DNA of 60,748 bases from Actinomycetota bacterium (GTDB lineage Bacteria > Actinomycetota > Humimicrobiia > Humimicrobiales > Humimicrobiaceae): assembly GCA_028698215.1 (NCBI GenBank), contig JAQVDY010000010.1, positions 1 through 60,748 on the forward strand, written 5' to 3'. Each line of letters starts with the position of its first letter. The first letter of the stretch is position 1. A model generated the notes under the pieces. That model did no database searches and had not been told where the DNA came from. It worked only from the letters and a program-made list of their open reading frames with translations. This document shows, piece after piece, positions 38,684 through 49,385 of the stretch. The translations under genes and the position numbers were made by a program.

Positions 38684-40120
38684 CTACCTGCCTATTTTCC
38701 CCTTTAATTTTTTAAGGTAGGCATAACTGCGATAAACAAAGCCCCTCTTTACTATGGCTTCCAGCTCGCCCAGGCGGCGGTCTCTTTCTTCTATCATCTT
38801 CTTCTGCCTGTAGGTAATATCCTCTAAATTGGCCAATGCTTCTTCCTTAAGGAACATCATCTCTTTTCTGTGGCCGCTGTCCGGGGCATGGGCGGGGCTA
38901 TCTACCCATTGCCTTAAACTTTTAGCAGTAAGGCCATAGCTGAAATTATCCAATCCATACTGCCTCCCTTTTTGGCCCCTCTCCTTTACTTGGCTGCGGT
39001 GGGAAGCCAGGTAGATTAGCAGCTGGGCCAAATCCTGGCTGTCATGGGGAGAAAAGGTATACCCTATTTTTTCCTGCTTTACTATATGGGTAAGCTCGCA
39101 TACATCGGAGCTAACCACACAAAGGCCGGCCCGCATCCAGTCCAGTATACGGTTTTTGCTTCCCAGCCTCACTTCATAAATATCCTTATCAATATTTATA
39201 CCTATATCGGCTTCCAGGTAATAATTAGGCACATCCTCGCCCTTAACCCATCCTTTCATGATAAAGTTATCCTTAAATTTACTTTTTTCAATCAAGGATA
39301 AAAAATGGGGATAGGTTTTGATATCCTGCTCCGGGATCTCCCCTCCGGTGGAAACAAACTTTATGCTCCGGTTAGAGGCCATGGCCTGCTGCAGGCCTTC
39401 AAACAGGGTATCTACGTCGGTCCAGGTATTATAGCCTCCCGTCCATAACACTACAAAGTCATCTTCTGAAACCCGGCCGGTGTTCCTGATGACTGTTTTA
39501 GTATGCTCATAGTTTTCGGCAGCCATGCCGCAGGGTATGCTGCAGCTGAAATCATAGCCCAAAGTATGCCGGTTAAGCCTGCCTGCCGCCCCCAGCTCTC
39601 CTATTAGGGCATATTCCTGCCTGCCGGATACACAGGAAAACATATCTGCCTGCTGCAATATGTGGTATTCCCGGTTCCAGTAATGAAACAGGCAGCCGTC
39701 GTTTTGGTCTACTGCCGCCCTGGCCTGGGCCTCAGCCATTACATGACCAAACAAATCCGCCCACATGGGCTGGGTGGATTTAATCCTGGAGGCGATATAG
39801 GAAGGGTAAAAGCTGCAGCCTATTATACAGTCCGGATTAAATTTCTGGCATAAACCAGAGACTAATTCCCTATGTTCAAAATCATGGGGGGAAAGCAGGT
39901 GGTAATCGAAACTGTAAGCGCCATATTTAAACCCCTCCCTGTGGCTGGAAGAAAAATCCTGGTTGTAGGCGCTGGGTATGGCATAACTTACCAGGCAAAC
40001 CTGGTGCCCGTCCTGGAGCAGGGGCTGGACAAACTGCCAGGTCCTAATCCCTGTGCCGTAAACTTTTTTATCGTTTTCAAAAGGCAGGGGACTCATCCCC
40101 AGTATGAATAATTTCCCCAT
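38684..40120 (-). CDS. GT4-like glycosyltransferase
   Basis: GT-B fold protein of 478 residues and first gene of the minus-strand glycan cluster. The C-terminal donor domain contains VLWTGGYNTWTDVDTLFEG, IMKGWVKGEDVPNYYLEADIG and NRILDWMRAGLCVVSSDV. A charged helical tail (about 425-478) follows. It starts at ATG 40120 and is divergent from the VTC/CotH operon. Donor and acceptor unknown. Confidence 0.82.
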   Translation of the reverse strand: MGKLFILGMSPLPFENDKKVYGTGIRTWQFVQPLLQDGHQVCLVSYAIPSAYNQDFSSSHREGFKYGAYSFDYHLLSPHDFEHRELVSGLCQKFNPDCIIGCSFYPSYIASRIKSTQPMWADLFGHVMAEAQARAAVDQNDGCLFHYWNREYHILQQADMFSCVSGRQEYALIGELGAAGRLNRHTLGYDFSCSIPCGMAAENYEHTKTVIRNTGRVSEDDFVVLWTGGYNTWTDVDTLFEGLQQAMASNRSIKFVSTGGEIPEQDIKTYPHFLSLIEKSKFKDNFIMKGWVKGEDVPNYYLEADIGINIDKDIYEVRLGSKNRILDWMRAGLCVVSSDVCELTHIVKQEKIGYTFSPHDSQDLAQLLIYLASHRSQVKERGQKGRQYGLDNFSYGLTAKSLRQWVDSPAHAPDSGHRKEMMFLKEEALANLEDITYRQKKMIEERDRRLGELEAIVKRGFVYRSYAYLKKLKGKIGR

Positions 40121-40292: not shown

Positions 40293-40985
40293 ATGCATAT
40301 GCACAAAAATTATAGGAATGAACTAAAGTACTATATAAATCATATCGACCACATTAAACTTTTGGACCGCATGAAGGGGATATTTGTAGAGGATACCCAT
40401 TCCAAAGACCGGGGGTACCTGGTTAGAAGCCTTTATTTTGACAATAAATCCAATAACAGCTATTACCATAAAATTGCCGGGGTAAGCGACCGCCAAAAAT
40501 ACAGGATTAGGATATATGATCTTAATCCCAGTCCCATCAAACTGGAGATAAAATCTAAAAGGCAAACCTATATCCATAAGCAGTCTGTTACCATAGCCCA
40601 GGACCAGGCCAGGCGCCTTATAGAGGGGGACTATAGGTTTTTAGCCCAGCATGACCACCGTACCGCCCGCCTGGTGCTGGCCAAGTTTTCCCAGGACAGC
40701 TTCCATCCGGCAGTAATAATTGATTATTTTCGGCAGGCTTATGTTTATCCTGAGAGCGGGCTTAGGGTTACTTTTGACCGCTGCCTGGGTAAAAACGAGA
40801 CCAGCTTCAGCCACTTTTTCCAATCAGGCTTGGATTTAAACCCGGTTATAGATTCCAAGAGGATAATAATGGAAATAAAGTTTAGCCAGCCTATTCCCCT
40901 ATGGATAAAAAAGATACTCCAGGTGGGCAGCTTTGAAAGCTGTGCCATAAGCAAATATACTTTATCAAGATATATAGAAGGGTAA
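40293..40985 (+). CDS. VTC domain protein (polyphosphate polymerase-like)
   Basis: Soluble tunnel-fold protein of 230 residues with the catalytic-type residues of VTC polyphosphate polymerases: basic YRIRIY (70-75), KLEIKSKR (83-90), a late IIMEIKF (191-197) and SKYTLSRY (220-227). VTC4 of yeast makes polyphosphate from ATP; bacterial relatives beside CotH genes have no settled role that I know of. It is followed after 4 nt by a DUF4956 membrane protein and then the CotH protein, an arrangement seen in other bacteria. No Shine-Dalgarno sequence is evident; the second ATG (40299) is also possible. Confidence 0.88.
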   Translation: MHMHKNYRNELKYYINHIDHIKLLDRMKGIFVEDTHSKDRGYLVRSLYFDNKSNNSYYHKIAGVSDRQKYRIRIYDLNPSPIKLEIKSKRQTYIHKQSVTIAQDQARRLIEGDYRFLAQHDHRTARLVLAKFSQDSFHPAVIIDYFRQAYVYPESGLRVTFDRCLGKNETSFSHFFQSGLDLNPVIDSKRIIMEIKFSQPIPLWIKKILQVGSFESCAISKYTLSRYIEG

Positions 40986-40989
40986 GATA

Positions 40990-41685
40990 ATGGATAGGAT
41001 TACGTTCAGGAGCTTTTTGGAATCCTTAAATGTGGATTCCATACAGGATATCACCCAGCAGATCAGCCTGGTCCAGGTAGTATTGAACCTGGTATTAGCA
41101 TTAGCTATTGCCATGTTCATCTATTGGATATACAAGATTACCTTCTCCGGAGTATTGTATTCCAAGAATTTTAATATAACCCTGGTGTTGGTATCTTTAG
41201 TAACCACTTCCGCGGTGATGATTATCGCCTCCAATATAGTGTTAGCTTTGGGTATGGTAGGAGCCCTTTCCATAGTAAGATTCAGGATGGCGGTAAAGGA
41301 CCCCAAGGATGTGGGCTTTCTGTTCTGGGCTATCACCAACGGCATAATCTGCGGGATATCCGCCTATGCTTTAGCTATTATCTGCGCCCTGTTTATAGGC
41401 CTGGTAATATTCGTACTTTCCAAAAAACTAAGGGTCACCGAACCTTACCTGCTTTTAGCGGAAGCCAGCCAGGATAACTGGCAGCAGGTGGAAGGGATAT
41501 GCCAAAAACTATGTCAGGTGTATAAGCTCAGGTCCAAAAACATAAGGGACAACCGGTACGATTTGGCAGTGGAGGTAAAGATTAAAAAAGATAATCTGCA
41601 GCAGTTCATATCAGAAGTTAAAAACCTGCCTTCCATGGAAAATATAAAGGTAGTATCTTATGAAGGAGACCTGGAAGAGGGTTAG
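40990..41685 (+). CDS. DUF4956 membrane protein
   Basis: Protein of 231 residues with three to four membrane helices in the first 150 residues (about 28-48, 56-78, 82-97, 108-150) and a soluble C-terminal domain of about 75 residues. The central block GMVGALSIVRFRMAVKDPKD is the DUF4956 hallmark. The consistent linkage with VTC and CotH proteins suggests a membrane component of one system, perhaps coupling cytoplasmic phosphate-polymer chemistry to an extracellular kinase. That role is inference. Confidence 0.88.
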   Translation: MDRITFRSFLESLNVDSIQDITQQISLVQVVLNLVLALAIAMFIYWIYKITFSGVLYSKNFNITLVLVSLVTTSAVMIIASNIVLALGMVGALSIVRFRMAVKDPKDVGFLFWAITNGIICGISAYALAIICALFIGLVIFVLSKKLRVTEPYLLLAEASQDNWQQVEGICQKLCQVYKLRSKNIRDNRYDLAVEVKIKKDNLQQFISEVKNLPSMENIKVVSYEGDLEEG

Positions 41686-41690
41686 GTTTG

Positions 41691-44600
41691 ATGTTTAAAA
41701 AAAGGGACCTGGTAATCATTTTAATTTTGGCCGCGGCCCTGGCCCTATCCTTGTTTCTATACTGGTCCCAACACCAGGATTTTTCTGTAGGAAAAACCTC
41801 TGCTGTTTTTGGCTCCAATAGCAATACCCTCCTGGTAAGGCTTGATCCAGAGGCAGAAACCCTGCAGAAAATATCCTTTGATTTTCCCTTCAGCAACCAT
41901 CAGGTATACCTGGAGGATCCACTTACCGGGGAAATGGTTAAGCTAAGTTCGGGTGACTATTATGATTTTGGCTCCTATATCTTTCATTCCACCCTTAAAG
42001 TAGGCAGAGAAGAGTATGACTTATGGGTAACCAATGGCCAGCTGCCCATAATCTCTATTGCTACTGCAGGGCAGGATATACCTAATGAACCCAAGGTTCC
42101 CTGTATCATATCCAGTTTGGATAAAAACATCAGCCATAATATAACGGCAGAAATAGAGACTGTAAACAATTACCAGCATTGTCCCCAACCAAGTTACAGC
42201 TTTAATCTAACCGGCAATCCCTTAACTGGAAAACCTGCCCCTTTGATGGATTACGGCAATGATACCCGCTTTATATTAAGCGCCCCTTATTTTGACCCTT
42301 CACTGATGAGGGAAAAATTGGCTTATGACCTGTATTCATTAATAGATGAGCAGGACAGTTTAGCCCCCCGTTACGTGGAGCTTTTTGTAGAAGGCGGTTA
42401 CCAGGGCATATATATCCTGTACCAGAGGCACTCCCCTTCCCTGTTTTCTGTAGATGAAAAGCAGGGAGCCTTATTTGAGGCTTCCGGATGGCAGGCTAAT
42501 TTTGCCCATGGCATTCAGGGTTTTTCCCAGGTAGGCTCGCAGGATGATAGGTTTTTTATGCTGGAAGGGTTAATCCAGCAGGTATACCAGCAGCAGTTCC
42601 CTTCCGGCCTGGACCTGGAAAGCGCAGTGGATAATTACCTGCTTTACCTCTATTCCGGATGCAGCCACCCTTTGGCGGCACATCAGTTTATCTATGGCCA
42701 AACTGCTGATGAGAAACTTAAATTGGCCCCGGGAGATTATTATCAAAGCAGCTGGGGCAGGGACAGCCGTTCTATAAAGCTGCCCCCGGAAGTGCTTAAG
42801 CTGGGCCGGCTGTTCAGCCTGCTGGAAGAGGAGCCACAGTTTAAGCAAATGCTACAAAACAAATGGGAAGATTTAAAGGATAGCCTGTTAAGTACCCAGC
42901 AGATGCAGTCCCTTATCCAGGCTAATGCCGGGCAGCTTAAACCCGCCCTGGAACGCAACCGTATAAGGTGGCCCTATCAGCCGGAACTGTTTGAAGACAG
43001 CCCTAGCTTCAGCCAGGAACTGGAATATATGCAAAGCTATATGGGCCAAAGATGGGAATGGTTAGACAGCTACCTTAATACATCCCTGGATATATACATA
43101 GGGGGGCAAAAGGCAGCCGTCAACCATGAAACCAAAACCATCTACTGCTCCTTGGAGCCGGGAGCAGATACCCGCCAGGTTATTGAAGCCAGCCTGCCAG
43201 CAGGTTCCAGTATACATATACAGCCGCTTTCCTATGGCAGCTTCAACCTGGACTACCTGCAGCAGAAAGACAGGTACCCTGATGATGGCTTTCTAAATTT
43301 AGATGAGCCTTCACCGCAGATCAAAATCAATATAGAGAGCATCGAGGAAGGTGCTGCTTTGTCCGGTATCATTGAGGTAACCGGCTGGGCAGTCAACAGT
43401 CAATTCCAATCCGACCCGGGAATAGAGGCCATATACCTATCCGATGGCCCCCTGTCTGGGCAGAATTACCTGGGCCAGGCTGGCTATGGGCAGGCTAGGA
43501 TAGATGTAGCCCAAAATTTTGGTAACCAAAACTACAGTAATTGCGGTTTTTCCTTTTCCTTTGACTCTGCCTACCTGGCTAACGGAAGCCACTCCCTTTA
43601 TGTTTACGCTGTGGGTAAGGACGGCAGCTACTCTGTGGCCAGGGTAGACTTTAACCTGGACAACCTTAACAGCATGTCCGATTATCCGGTTCCCCAGACA
43701 GGCTACCTGTCTCCTGGACAGCATTATGACTTTGTGGATTTCATATACCATGGCAACCTGGCCCTGGAAGGCCACGGAACCTATGAGTTATGGGTAACTA
43801 CTGGACAGATACCCATAATCACCATAGACACCGGGGGGCAAGATATAATTAACTTTCCCAAGATTGGCTGCCAGTTCCAGCTTATCTCTGCAGAAAACTG
43901 GTATAACTACCATACCCCGCCCATGGAGGGCCTGATAGAAGTAAGGGGAGGATCCAGCCGGTTTTCCCAAAAGAAGTCCTATAGCTTTAAATTTGAAAGA
44001 AGCCTGGTGCATAATATTGACCTGGACCTGCTGGACATGGTCCAAGCCAGGAAGTGGATATTAAACAGCTGCTTTTTGGATCGCTCCTTTATGAGGGATA
44101 AGATATCTTATGATTTGTTTAACCAGCTAAGGGATGACCGGCATTACGATTTTGCTTCCCAGACCAAGTTTGTGGAAGTGTTTGTAAACGGCAGGTACAA
44201 CGGGCTTTACCTGCTTACGGAAAGAATAGATGAAGACAGCTTAAACCTAGCTGACTACAGCCCTGATGACCCTATGCATAGTGTAGTGTATAAATCCTAT
44301 AGTTCAGCTACCAGCTGGAGGAGGTTCAATACAGACCTGGATTATATACCTTTTGACAAGCTGGGGCCCTATCACGGCTATTTGCAGAAAGAGCCCAACC
44401 CTGACAATCCGGACCATCAGGAATTCTGGAGTCCTTTGGCTTATTTTAAAGAGATGGCCATAAAATCCCCTGACCCTTATTTCAGCCAGCATATAGAAGG
44501 CATGCTGGATACTTCCAATGCTATCGACCTGCATCTGTTGATACTGGTTACCGGGGCTGATGATGCCTTGCTGAACAACCAGTACCTGGCCCGGGATAAC

Positions 44601-45380
44601 CAAGGGGACAGCCTCTTTTTCTTTGTCCCCTGGGATTACAATGCGTCTTTTGGCAGGAATGCCTATAGTATTAAAACCTCTTTTGCCCGCTGGTATTCCA
44701 ATGGGCTGCTGGACCGGCTGTTACTGCTTTCTCCCTATCAGCAAGAGTTTAAAAACAGGTGGAACCAGGTTAGGGAATCGGTGTTTTCCTACCAGAATAT
44801 AGAGCAGATGATAGAGGAAAATGCACGGCTTATAGAAGATGCAGCCGCGCGTAATTTTAAGAAATACCCCATTATAGTGGGCGATGACTGGAAAAAGGAC
44901 CAGCATATAGACCCTTATGACTTTAACCAGGAACTGGACTACTTAAAATCATGGGCCCATAACCGCATTAATTTTTTAGATGCCTATATTAATTCCACTA
45001 CTGATTTGGCCCAGAATATGGTAAATGAAGCCATACGTATAAATGTAGATTATCCCCTGGCTGCCCAGGAGGTAAACCAGGAGTTTGTCCTTAGCGGGTG
45101 GGCAGTAAATATTGCCAGCCAGCAGGAGACTGGTATCCAGAGGCTAACAGTGTTTAAGGAAACGGGAGGCAGGCTTGAGCTTCTTACTGAAGTTTCTTAC
45201 GGGCAGCCCCGGGAAGATGTAGCCCAATTCTTTTCGGTTCCCGGCTATGAGCCCTGCGGATTCAGTGCTCCGATTGCCTTAGACCAATTGGATAAGGGGA
45301 TAAACCTGCTGTGGATTTTTGCCTATGATTATCAGGGAAAATACAATATTGCACCTTTAGAGATAACGGTAAAATATTAA
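41691..45380 (+). CDS. tandem CotH-like protein kinase (pseudokinase plus kinase), membrane anchored
   Basis: Large extracellular protein of about 1229 residues with one N-terminal anchor (about 7-24). Two homologous halves follow. Each has an opening beta-rich segment (DLWVTNGQLPIISI; ELWVTTGQIPIITI), a CotH-like domain and a small beta domain with GWAVN (565-569 and 1136-1140). The second CotH copy has KKSYSFKF (761-768), LLTERIDED, NNQYLARD and PWDYNASFG, the expected kinase elements. The first copy has PSYSFNL, LYQRHSP, AHQF and GDYY at the same places, so it looks inactive. ATG 41691 is preferred to TTG 41688. Its stop overlaps the convergent gene's stop. Target protein unknown. Confidence 0.88.
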   Translation: MFKKRDLVIILILAAALALSLFLYWSQHQDFSVGKTSAVFGSNSNTLLVRLDPEAETLQKISFDFPFSNHQVYLEDPLTGEMVKLSSGDYYDFGSYIFHSTLKVGREEYDLWVTNGQLPIISIATAGQDIPNEPKVPCIISSLDKNISHNITAEIETVNNYQHCPQPSYSFNLTGNPLTGKPAPLMDYGNDTRFILSAPYFDPSLMREKLAYDLYSLIDEQDSLAPRYVELFVEGGYQGIYILYQRHSPSLFSVDEKQGALFEASGWQANFAHGIQGFSQVGSQDDRFFMLEGLIQQVYQQQFPSGLDLESAVDNYLLYLYSGCSHPLAAHQFIYGQTADEKLKLAPGDYYQSSWGRDSRSIKLPPEVLKLGRLFSLLEEEPQFKQMLQNKWEDLKDSLLSTQQMQSLIQANAGQLKPALERNRIRWPYQPELFEDSPSFSQELEYMQSYMGQRWEWLDSYLNTSLDIYIGGQKAAVNHETKTIYCSLEPGADTRQVIEASLPAGSSIHIQPLSYGSFNLDYLQQKDRYPDDGFLNLDEPSPQIKINIESIEEGAALSGIIEVTGWAVNSQFQSDPGIEAIYLSDGPLSGQNYLGQAGYGQARIDVAQNFGNQNYSNCGFSFSFDSAYLANGSHSLYVYAVGKDGSYSVARVDFNLDNLNSMSDYPVPQTGYLSPGQHYDFVDFIYHGNLALEGHGTYELWVTTGQIPIITIDTGGQDIINFPKIGCQFQLISAENWYNYHTPPMEGLIEVRGGSSRFSQKKSYSFKFERSLVHNIDLDLLDMVQARKWILNSCFLDRSFMRDKISYDLFNQLRDDRHYDFASQTKFVEVFVNGRYNGLYLLTERIDEDSLNLADYSPDDPMHSVVYKSYSSATSWRRFNTDLDYIPFDKLGPYHGYLQKEPNPDNPDHQEFWSPLAYFKEMAIKSPDPYFSQHIEGMLDTSNAIDLHLLILVTGADDALLNNQYLARDNQGDSLFFFVPWDYNASFGRNAYSIKTSFARWYSNGLLDRLLLLSPYQQEFKNRWNQVRESVFSYQNIEQMIEENARLIEDAAARNFKKYPIIVGDDWKKDQHIDPYDFNQELDYLKSWAHNRINFLDAYINSTTDLAQNMVNEAIRINVDYPLAAQEVNQEFVLSGWAVNIASQQETGIQRLTVFKETGGRLELLTEVSYGQPREDVAQFFSVPGYEPCGFSAPIALDQLDKGINLLWIFAYDYQGKYNIAPLEITVKY

Positions 45381-46531: not shown

Positions 46532-47491
46532 ATGAAGAATTTACTAATAACCGGAGGAGCCGGCTTTATAGGCTCCAGTTTTATAGGCCGGCTGCTAAAA
46601 AGTAATTACCGGGGCAGGATTATTTGCCTGGATGATTTTAATGATTATTACTCGCCTGCCATTAAGAGAAGTAATATTGCAGAGTATAGGAATTATCCTA
46701 ACTTTCTGCTTTATGAAGCAGACATAACTGATTATGAGTCACTAGTGCAGCTGTTTAAGGCCCATAAGATAGACAAGATAGTACATCTGGCTGCCCGGGC
46801 AGGGGTAAGGCCGTCTATCGAGGACCCGCTGCTGTATGGAAAGGTAAATGTAAGCGGTACCCTTAATTTGCTGCAGCTGGCCTGCCAGTATAAAATACAC
46901 AAATTTATATTTGCCTCATCCTCCTCTGTTTATGGCAATAACCAGAAAATACCTTTTGCCGAGCAGGATAATGTAGATTTTCCAATCTCCCCCTACGCAG
47001 CTACCAAAAAAAGCGGGGAGCTGATTTGTTATACCTATCACCACCTGTATGAAATGGACTGCTTCTGCTTGCGGTTCTTTACCGTATACGGCCCCCGGCA
47101 GAGGCCGGAAATGGCTATTCATAAGTTTGTGGACCTGATAGAGAAAGGAAAGCCAATACATATGTACGGGGATGGTTCCACCAGCAGGGATTATACTTTT
47201 ATCGATGATATAACCCAGGCACTGGAGACCTGCCTGGACCGCCTGCAGGGCTACCAGATCTTTAACCTGGGCAACTGCCATCCTATCACCCTTAAGCAAT
47301 TAATCAGGCTGATTGAGCAAAAGCTGGGCAAGAAAGCCCAAATTGTGCCTATGGAAATGCAGCCCGGAGATGTGGATATTACCTATGCTGATATAACTAA
47401 AGCCAAAAAATGGCTGGACTATAATCCTGCTACCCCCATAGAAGAGGGGATTGAAAAATTTATTACATGGTACCGAGAAAAGGAAAATTAA
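46532..47491 (+). CDS. NAD-dependent nucleotide-sugar epimerase (UDP-glucuronate/UDP-glucose 4-epimerase-like)
   Basis: Extended SDR of 319 residues with ITGGAGFIGSSFIG, the DDFNDYY segment typical of UDP-glucuronate 4-epimerases, HLAARAGVRPSIEDP, the catalytic YAATKKSGE and RFFTVYGPRQRPEMA. Likely supplies a galacturonic- or galactose-type donor for the glycan genes. Starts divergently from the propeller gene with TATAAT at 46495-46500 upstream. The following gene begins only 1 nt after its stop. Confidence 0.9.
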   Translation: MKNLLITGGAGFIGSSFIGRLLKSNYRGRIICLDDFNDYYSPAIKRSNIAEYRNYPNFLLYEADITDYESLVQLFKAHKIDKIVHLAARAGVRPSIEDPLLYGKVNVSGTLNLLQLACQYKIHKFIFASSSSVYGNNQKIPFAEQDNVDFPISPYAATKKSGELICYTYHHLYEMDCFCLRFFTVYGPRQRPEMAIHKFVDLIEKGKPIHMYGDGSTSRDYTFIDDITQALETCLDRLQGYQIFNLGNCHPITLKQLIRLIEQKLGKKAQIVPMEMQPGDVDITYADITKAKKWLDYNPATPIEEGIEKFITWYREKEN

Positions 47492-47492
47492 A

Positions 47493-49385
47493 TTGGCTAA
47501 GACAAAAGATAATCCTTCATCTTTTTTTAAAAGCAAAGCTTTCATCATACTGATACTGGCAGCCCTGCTGCTGGCTATTGCCATACCAGTGGGTTACATG
47601 TACTATCTGGACTACCTGAACTCCCCCAATTTTGTAAGCCCGGAATCCAACTTTATTTCCGTCTCTGCTGACCAGGCCAGCCCGGGAGACCAGCTTACCT
47701 ATACTATCAGGCTTGCCAATGAGGGCAGAAAAGAGGCAAATGATATCCATGTAACTACCGATTTGCCGGAACATACTACCCTAACTGATGAGGATACAGA
47801 CTACCTGGAACAGATAATCGGAAACCAGGTTAAGTTTTTGATAGACAGCCTTCCTGTGGGCCAGAATATAGAATTTAGCTACACAGTTACCATAGACAAT
47901 CCCCTGGACAATGGGACAGTTATCAGCAATAACAGCTTCCTGGTTAATTACCAGAGGCAGGGAGACCAAGAAACTGTAGAGAAAAAGTTTGAGACTGACC
48001 TTAAGACCACTGTTACCAGCAATATTGATTTCTCCGAATCCTATTACAAGATAACCGATGAAAATGGTGGGTACATCAGGATGGGAGATACCTTAAACAT
48101 TGTATATTTTGTTAAAAACAGCGGTAATATGATAGCTGAAAATGTAAAGATAAAGGGTATCATACCCGCTAATACCAATTTGGTGGAAGGAAGCTTCTCT
48201 TCAGATTCAGCCTATATGGACCAGGTGGACGGGGAAACAGTAATAAAGCTGGATAAGGTAGAAACCAATGCCAAGATGTTTATTAATTATTCAGTACAGG
48301 TGGCTTCCGGCCTGGCAGATAATACCAAGGTTTTATTTGAGCCCACTATTGAAAACGGAACCATGCAGGCAGTGATGGAAAACCAGGAATTTACAGTGCG
48401 GGCTTTTCCCCAGTTTACACCCTTGAGCCTGGCCGGGGTAGATGAAAACGGAGGTGACCTGCTTCCCAATGAAACGGTAAGGTATACGGTAACCTTTAAA
48501 AACGAAGGGGACGGCAGCGCCTTTAATGTATTTGTAGAAAATGCCATCCCGGACAATACCACCCTGCTGGACTACAGCCTAGAGCCTTCCCAGTTTAACT
48601 GGGAATTGCAGGATAAGGTGTTCAGTATAAGAATAGCAGAACTGGCCCCGGGCGAAGAGTTCAGCTATTCTTACCGGGTAAAAGTAGCCGGAGGCCTTTA
48701 TTACGGAACCAAGATTACCAATACCAATACCCTGATACACCAGGAAGAAAGGCTCAGTTCCCAATCTGTAACCCATACAATTATCTCCAATTATGGTTAT
48801 AATGTGGTGGTAATGGGAGATTCCCAAGTGGCCAATACCAACTGGGCAGGCCATCTTAACGGTATTTTTGAGCAAAAGTATTTTTATGGCGATTTTAACT
48901 TCATAAAAAGCGGCAAGGGCGGAGAGACAGTGCTGATGGGATACAACCGCATGCTTAGCTCAGGTGTTTTGGGACAAAGCCCCTATATCTTCATCCTCAA
49001 CTATGGCACCAATGATGCCGATACCTCTTCCGGCTATTACCGTATAGCGCCGGAGACTTTCCGGTACTACCTGGGAGCCATGATAGATACCATTAAAACC
49101 AATACCGGTGCCCTGGTGGTAGTAATGTCTACCGGGCCGGTAAATGAAGGAGTAAATGAAGCCCACACCAATTCCGATTTGGCCACCTATAGTAACCTGG
49201 CAGCACAGGTAGCCGCCCAGCATGGAGCTGTATTTGTGGATGTGTTCAATCCCATGATGCAGAGCGGAAATCCTAATCAGTACCTGGGCGATGGGCTGCA
49301 TTACAACAGCAATGGAGACCAGTTTGTAGCCAGTATTGCCTTTAATACTATTTCCAGGCATTTAAACCAGTATGGAACCAGGTAG
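47493..49385 (+). CDS. membrane-anchored SGNH/GDSL hydrolase with DUF11-like stalk
   Basis: Extracellular protein of about 630 residues. A membrane anchor (about 16-37) is followed by three DUF11-like repeats (about 54-150, 190-300 and 305-420; for example SPGDQLTYTIRLAN and LPNETVRYTVTFKN). A C-terminal SGNH domain has the nucleophile GDS (442-444), GTND (505-508) and DGLH (600-603). Likely a carbohydrate or peptidoglycan O-acyl esterase. TTG 47493 with AGGA 8 nt upstream is preferred; an in-frame ATG at 47451 would overlap the epimerase gene by 41 nt. Confidence 0.85.
   Translation: MAKTKDNPSSFFKSKAFIILILAALLLAIAIPVGYMYYLDYLNSPNFVSPESNFISVSADQASPGDQLTYTIRLANEGRKEANDIHVTTDLPEHTTLTDEDTDYLEQIIGNQVKFLIDSLPVGQNIEFSYTVTIDNPLDNGTVISNNSFLVNYQRQGDQETVEKKFETDLKTTVTSNIDFSESYYKITDENGGYIRMGDTLNIVYFVKNSGNMIAENVKIKGIIPANTNLVEGSFSSDSAYMDQVDGETVIKLDKVETNAKMFINYSVQVASGLADNTKVLFEPTIENGTMQAVMENQEFTVRAFPQFTPLSLAGVDENGGDLLPNETVRYTVTFKNEGDGSAFNVFVENAIPDNTTLLDYSLEPSQFNWELQDKVFSIRIAELAPGEEFSYSYRVKVAGGLYYGTKITNTNTLIHQEERLSSQSVTHTIISNYGYNVVVMGDSQVANTNWAGHLNGIFEQKYFYGDFNFIKSGKGGETVLMGYNRMLSSGVLGQSPYIFILNYGTNDADTSSGYYRIAPETFRYYLGAMIDTIKTNTGALVVVMSTGPVNEGVNEAHTNSDLATYSNLAAQVAAQHGAVFVDVFNPMMQSGNPNQYLGDGLHYNSNGDQFVASIAFNTISRHLNQYGTR

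Follow-up and report, generated by a model that had tools for sequence, protein, structure and literature searches.

Results and Discussion

Genes at the Locus

The window, that is, the whole stretch of 60,748 nucleotides that was analyzed, contains a gene for a protein with two CotH domains (hereafter double-CotH), which follows genes for a VTC-domain protein and a DUF4956 protein (Table 1). The reading frame begins with the ATG at 41691, just 3' of a Shine-Dalgarno-like run (GGAAGAGGG); a TTG at 41688 is an alternative in-frame start. The DUF4956 gene ends 5 bp before the CotH start, and VTC-DUF4956-CotH is an apparent operon in which the double-CotH gene would be the last.

Table 1. Features of the VTC-DUF4956-CotH region (coordinates of the window).
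Feature	Coordinates	Strand	Evidence
VTC-domain (polyphosphate-polymerase-like) protein, first of the trio	40293..40985	+	PF09359, E 1.2e-35
DUF4956 (MgtC-like membrane) protein, second of the trio	40990..41685	+	PF16316, E 4.8e-10
Double-CotH protein, 1229 aa, N-terminal membrane anchor	41691..45380	+	ORF, hydrophobicity, start site
CotH copy 1 (residues 86–466), degenerate	41946..43088	+	Pfam 91.8 bits; AF2 model; 5JDA match
Linker and first GWAVN beta domain (GWAVN at residue 565)	43089..43709	+	
CotH copy 2 (residues 674–1103), catalytic set present	43710..44999	+	Pfam 163.2 bits; AF2 model; 5JDA match
Second GWAVN beta domain (GWAVN at residue 1136)	45000..45380	+	

The sole hydrophobic segment of the protein is N-terminal (approximately residues 7–25) and corresponds to the membrane anchor; the rest of the chain is predicted to be extracellular. 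An earlier reading of the same DNA made from the sequence alone (the sequence-only reading) had placed the protein on the outer surface. The single N-terminal anchor agrees with an extracellular location, but in an Actinomycetota genome it is the extracellular face that should be spoken of rather than an outer surface.

Internal Duplication and Predicted Fold

The sequence-only reading had also described the protein as an internal duplication with a period of about 571 residues, each half closing with a GWAVN beta domain, and both points were confirmed. BLASTP aligns copy 1 with copy 2 at E = 3e-42 (29% identity over 433 columns), and the distance from one GWAVN motif to the next is exactly 571 residues, with a spacing of about 588–589 residues between the kinase parts themselves. 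The repeat unit consists of a strand-rich YDF..DLWVTTG segment, the CotH domain, a linker, and the GWAVN beta domain, for which the profile search gave just a sub-threshold hint of a Big_7 Ig-like domain. The scores of both copies with the Pfam CotH profile (PF08757) exceed the cut-off of 23.8 bits, copy 2 scoring higher than copy 1 (Table 1), and a search with this profile found no CotH domains beyond these two in the 98% complete genome.

The AlphaFold2 models, calculated with a 53-row alignment, have a pLDDT of 88.7 and a pTM of 0.88 for copy 1 and a pLDDT of 82.4 and a pTM of 0.86 for copy 2. The top PDB match of both copies in Foldseek is 5JDA, CotH with Mg/AMP (copy 1: E 1.7e-17, TM 0.77 by target; copy 2: E 1.3e-18, TM 0.81 by target), and phmmer matches copy 2 to 5JD9 with E 6.9e-8. 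Both halves are thus predicted to fold as CotH, and a non-kinase fold for copy 1 was ruled out by its match to 5JDA.

In family profile and crystal structure, both copies are therefore like the bacterial CotH of B. subtilis and B. cereus (5JD9/5JDA). The protein of the window is unlike these in that its CotH domains are arranged in tandem in an anchored chain, GWAVN domains are added, and one of the copies is degenerate; there are also no spore coat substrates in view here.

Catalytic Residues of the Two Copies

The two essential Asp residues of B. subtilis CotH are D228 and D251 (PMC7821199), and their distance of 23 residues matches that between the Asp of FDGFVHN and the Asp of PWDYD in B. 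cereus CotH, according to the alignment with the PDB sequence. Both have equivalents in copy 2 (D958 and D982, respectively), where the catalytic set also includes the RG loop (R752/G753), K761, E844, and N963. In copy 1, V158/N159 stand in place of the RG loop, Q166 in place of the Lys, Q245 in place of the Glu, H326 in place of the catalytic Asp (the D228 equivalent), and H331 in place of its partner Asn; the equivalent of D251 is probably D349. The replacements of KKSY by PQPSY, TERID by YQRHS, and the NNQY region by AHQF, which had been noted by eye, hold in the alignment.

For the metal Asp of copy 1, the picture is more complex. The motif PWDYN of copy 2 had been contrasted with GDYYQ of copy 1 as a further loss; PWD is indeed present in copy 2, but the metal Asp of copy 1, although ambiguous, is probably kept, because two of three alignments pair D349, in APGDYYQ, with the metal Asp of PWD, namely the BLASTP alignment of the two copies and that of a copy-1 profile (HMMER) with the CotH crystal sequence. 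In the MAFFT alignment with 60 mostly Bacteroidota sequences, the register is shifted by one, and Tyr350 falls in the metal Asp column. Since MAFFT alone gives this shift, a full loss of the metal Asp was not adopted. As judged from these alignments, copy 1 is without the RG loop, Lys, Glu, and catalytic Asp whichever register is chosen; the concern that copy 1 might keep its catalytic residues in shifted positions is thus removed for the Lys and the catalytic Asp but not for the metal Asp.

Among 60 single CotHs, 47 columns are conserved at a level of at least 90%. When eight of these are taken, by our choice, as catalytic-type (R, G, K, E, D228, N/S, and the W and D of PWD), copy 1 retains 0 or 1 of the eight and copy 2 retains 7 (Fisher p 0.01); the conservation of the Lys is biased, as the reference CotHs were partly retrieved via a K-K/N-SYS motif, while D228, D251, and the Glu lay outside the search patterns used. 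The other 39 conserved columns are retained about equally, 17/39 in copy 1 and 20/39 in copy 2 (Fisher p 0.65).

Copy 2 belongs to the CotH kinase family (PF08757) by its profile, fold, and catalytic residues alike. Copy 1 belongs to it by profile and fold but not by catalytic residues, and the alignments define it as a CotH-fold domain rather than a presumptively active CotH kinase. Because 5JDA is its top match and because of its residue losses, copy 1 is, according to the model, a CotH kinase fold that lacks the greater part of the catalytic machinery, and it very probably has no ordinary kinase activity.

Evolution of the Tandem Arrangement

Four genomes of one Actinomycetota family carry the double-CotH arrangement: that of the window, one of the same genus (G002), and two of other genera (G007 and G016), with several fragments in G016 that resemble three paralogous genes. 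A local assembly artefact or recent decay was discarded as an explanation, since the orthologues share both the arrangement and the RG-loop and Glu losses. The copy-1 domains of the three genera form one clade (support 100/100), as do the copy-2 domains of the window, G002, and G007 (98/92), and copy-1 and copy-2 domains jointly form a clade (96/81), a pattern that fits a single duplication in the ancestor of the family.

The RG loop and the Glu are lost in all five copy 1s, with Gln in place of the Glu in the genus of the window and Arg elsewhere. The remaining losses differ by lineage: the Lys is kept in G007 and G016, and the copy 1s of G016 keep D228 and the Asn and lose D251. The interpretation of copy 1 as a putative pseudokinase, which had been proposed from the sequence, is borne out by the kept fold, by the contrast in catalytic-type positions with copy 2, and by the conservation of this copy across the family.

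Some presumed pseudokinases proved active through altered chemistry, and copy 1 might similarly use another nucleotide orientation or another mode of metal binding, given that its fold is intact, one metal Asp is probably kept, and the copy 1s of G016 keep the catalytic Asp, the Asn, and the Lys. We consider this very improbable: in the copy 1 of the window, the Lys, Glu, catalytic Asp, and Asn are all lost, and the lineage-specific character of the losses speaks against a single, conserved active site of another kind.

Between the window and G002, identity is 82% for copy 2, 59% for copy 1, and 55–56% for the beta domains. The dN/dS values for the same pair are about 0.17 for copy 1 and about 0.03 for copy 2; these estimates are rough, with dS near saturation, and point to a copy 1 that is under purifying selection, yet faster evolving than copy 2. 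The rate of copy 1, close to that of the beta domains, would also suit a role outside kinase function, in which copy 1 is a binding module for a glycan, polyphosphate, or a wall protein built on a kinase fold, like the GWAVN domains. The differences between lineages in the residue sets lost are in keeping with such a role, as is the shuffling around copy 1 seen in one of the paralogues of G016 (G016c), where copy 2 (L014:841-2181) groups with a planctomycete single CotH (100/98). The latter suggests domain exchange that put a copy 2 of a different type behind a conserved copy 1. In complete genes, however, copy 1 and copy 2 share one protein with the same domain order, and a pure binding role appears rather unlikely to us.

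Copy 2 itself is not uniform. In G007 (L013, around TGNWIGIQSNRY), it has Ile at the catalytic Asp, and neither copy of this double-CotH has a complete catalytic set; in G016c, Ser occupies the D228 position of copy 2. Because these two copy 2s lack the catalytic Asp, the pairing of one dead and one live copy is no family rule: the live twin claimed in the sequence-only reading stands, as far as residues can indicate, for the window and its congener G002 and falls for G007 and one G016 paralogue, and an intact live partner as a family-wide rule is not supported outside the genus of the window. The same losses in copy 2 and the incomplete sets in G007 could reflect a drift of the whole protein to a non-catalytic scaffold, with copy 2 dispensable as a kinase and the intact copy 2 of the window a retained ancestral state. 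This is unlikely in view of the low dN/dS, high identity, and full catalytic set of copy 2 in the genus of the window.

Distribution of Double-CotH Proteins

CotH occurs in 30 of the 396 sampled Actinomycetota genomes, and outside the family of the window (f1) none of the 396 has two CotH domains in one frame. In 198 Bacteroidota genomes, no double-CotH was seen by eye among the matches listed. An independent tandem CotH of 1068 aa was found in a Paludibacteraceae MAG (L080:7188-10391), and its first copy is also without the metal-binding Asp. This MAG has 17 CotH matches in its genome. Double-CotH as a common architecture is unsupported, as the family-wide search in Actinomycetota and Bacteroidota restricts it, among the matches listed, to f1 and the single Paludibacteraceae case.

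The VTC-DUF4956-CotH Trio and Pel

The trio is conserved, with orthologous genes, in G002 and G016, whereas G019 has a different, single CotH beside VTC-DUF4956 on the opposite strand. Of the 40 genomes of the class, precisely the five that have VTC have CotH, and the two genes are adjacent in most of these five; the chance of this co-occurrence is 1.5e-6 under the assumption of independent genomes, which these genomes are not. The trio-bearing genomes of the class are those of the window, G002, G007, G016, and G019. In G007, a transposase-like frame (L096:121-501) lies just behind DUF4956 on the contig concerned, in the place of the CotH gene in its relatives.

In Gram-positive bacteria, VTC-DUF4956-CotH has been reported as an accessory trio of pel loci (PMC7112168). 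In Streptococcus intermedius (SIR_1592-1594), deletion of DUF4956 and CotH leads to less Pel and less aggregation, and the authors found no VTC-DUF4956-CotH synteny outside Pel (PMC12345266). The trio of the window is like that of S. intermedius in having the same three gene families side by side and unlike it in that the CotH is doubled and PelG (PF16933), the Pel gene that we searched for, has no match in the 98% complete genome or in the other four trio genomes. All five trio genomes lack a PelG match, so that the trio occurs separately from PelG, contrary to the published Pel-only synteny. The genes are thus adjacent as in the Pel accessory trio but, as judged by PelG, not linked to a pel locus, and membership of the double-CotH trio in such a locus was discarded for want of a PelG match. 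The tight co-occurrence of VTC and CotH without PelG suggests that the three genes make up an independent functional unit and not a Pel accessory, which bears on the phosphate source of an extracellular kinase.

A Probable Pseudokinase Beside a Putative Live Kinase

In the model that we propose, a CotH kinase and its GWAVN beta domain would have been duplicated in tandem, as one unit, in an ancestor, giving rise to a membrane-anchored extracellular protein. In the genus of the window, copy 2 would be a working Ser/Thr- or glycan-directed kinase, while copy 1, having kept the kinase fold and lost catalysis, would persist as a non-catalytic, tethered partner whose role is to hold, stabilize, or activate copy 2 or to place the substrate of copy 2. 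Together with the VTC and DUF4956 proteins, whose genes appear to be co-transcribed with its own, the double-CotH protein would serve the assembly of the cell surface or of an exopolysaccharide in a step linked to polyphosphate. We estimate the probability of this model as a whole at about 0.5. For the genus of the window, the residues of the two copies give good support to the pairing of a putative pseudokinase with a live kinase. Kinase activity of copy 2 is somewhat favored, and an influence of copy 1 on copy 2 is possible, though short of probable. As in the sequence-only reading, we infer that copy 1 may regulate copy 2 or present substrate to it.

By analogy, the nearest precedent for copy 1 as a tethered pseudokinase would be the FAM20A/FAM20C pair of animals. 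FAM20A is a pseudokinase in which a conserved Glu is replaced by Gln and which activates FAM20C without catalysis (PMC4421793); it binds ATP without metal and in an inverted orientation (PMC5413348). As in the protein of the window, these are extracellular or secretory atypical kinases in which a degenerate paralogue is paired with an apparently intact kinase, and copy 1 also has a Glu to Gln replacement, which is not meant as a positional match to E306 of FAM20C. Such a pairing of a degenerate and an intact kinase occurs in the window and G002 and is absent from G007 and G016c. The FAM20 proteins, for which activation is known, are separate, whereas the two copies here are parts of one polypeptide. 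It is a speculative and rather unlikely extension that the protein is an extracellular kinase covalently fused to its own pseudokinase activator and represents, by convergence, a single-chain version of FAM20A/FAM20C, in a Pel-independent VTC-DUF4956 surface phosphorylation system.

In the open literature searched, we found no report of a CotH pseudokinase and, for the CotH family, none of a design with a dead regulator and a live enzyme; extracellular regulation of CotH-type kinases has been little explored. The fused pair is an easy test object, with both halves on one chain, and close relatives offer natural variants in which different residues are lost. The outcome would tell whether pseudokinase regulation of secreted kinases also arose in bacteria.

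The best clue to the pathway of the double-CotH protein is its VTC and DUF4956 partners, with which the sequence-only reading had not linked it. Because the surroundings of the trio in the window are rich in glycosyltransferases, a glycan or a surface protein of an exopolysaccharide system is a plausible CotH substrate.

Two further genes flank the trio. A glycosyltransferase gene at 38684-40120 (MGKLFILGMSPLPFEND...) is divergent from VTC and has conserved counterparts next to the trio in G002, G007, and G016. Downstream, the protein encoded at 47451-49385 has three DUF11 repeats and, at its C terminus, a GDSL/SGNH hydrolase domain; this possible surface partner is conserved downstream of the trio in G002.
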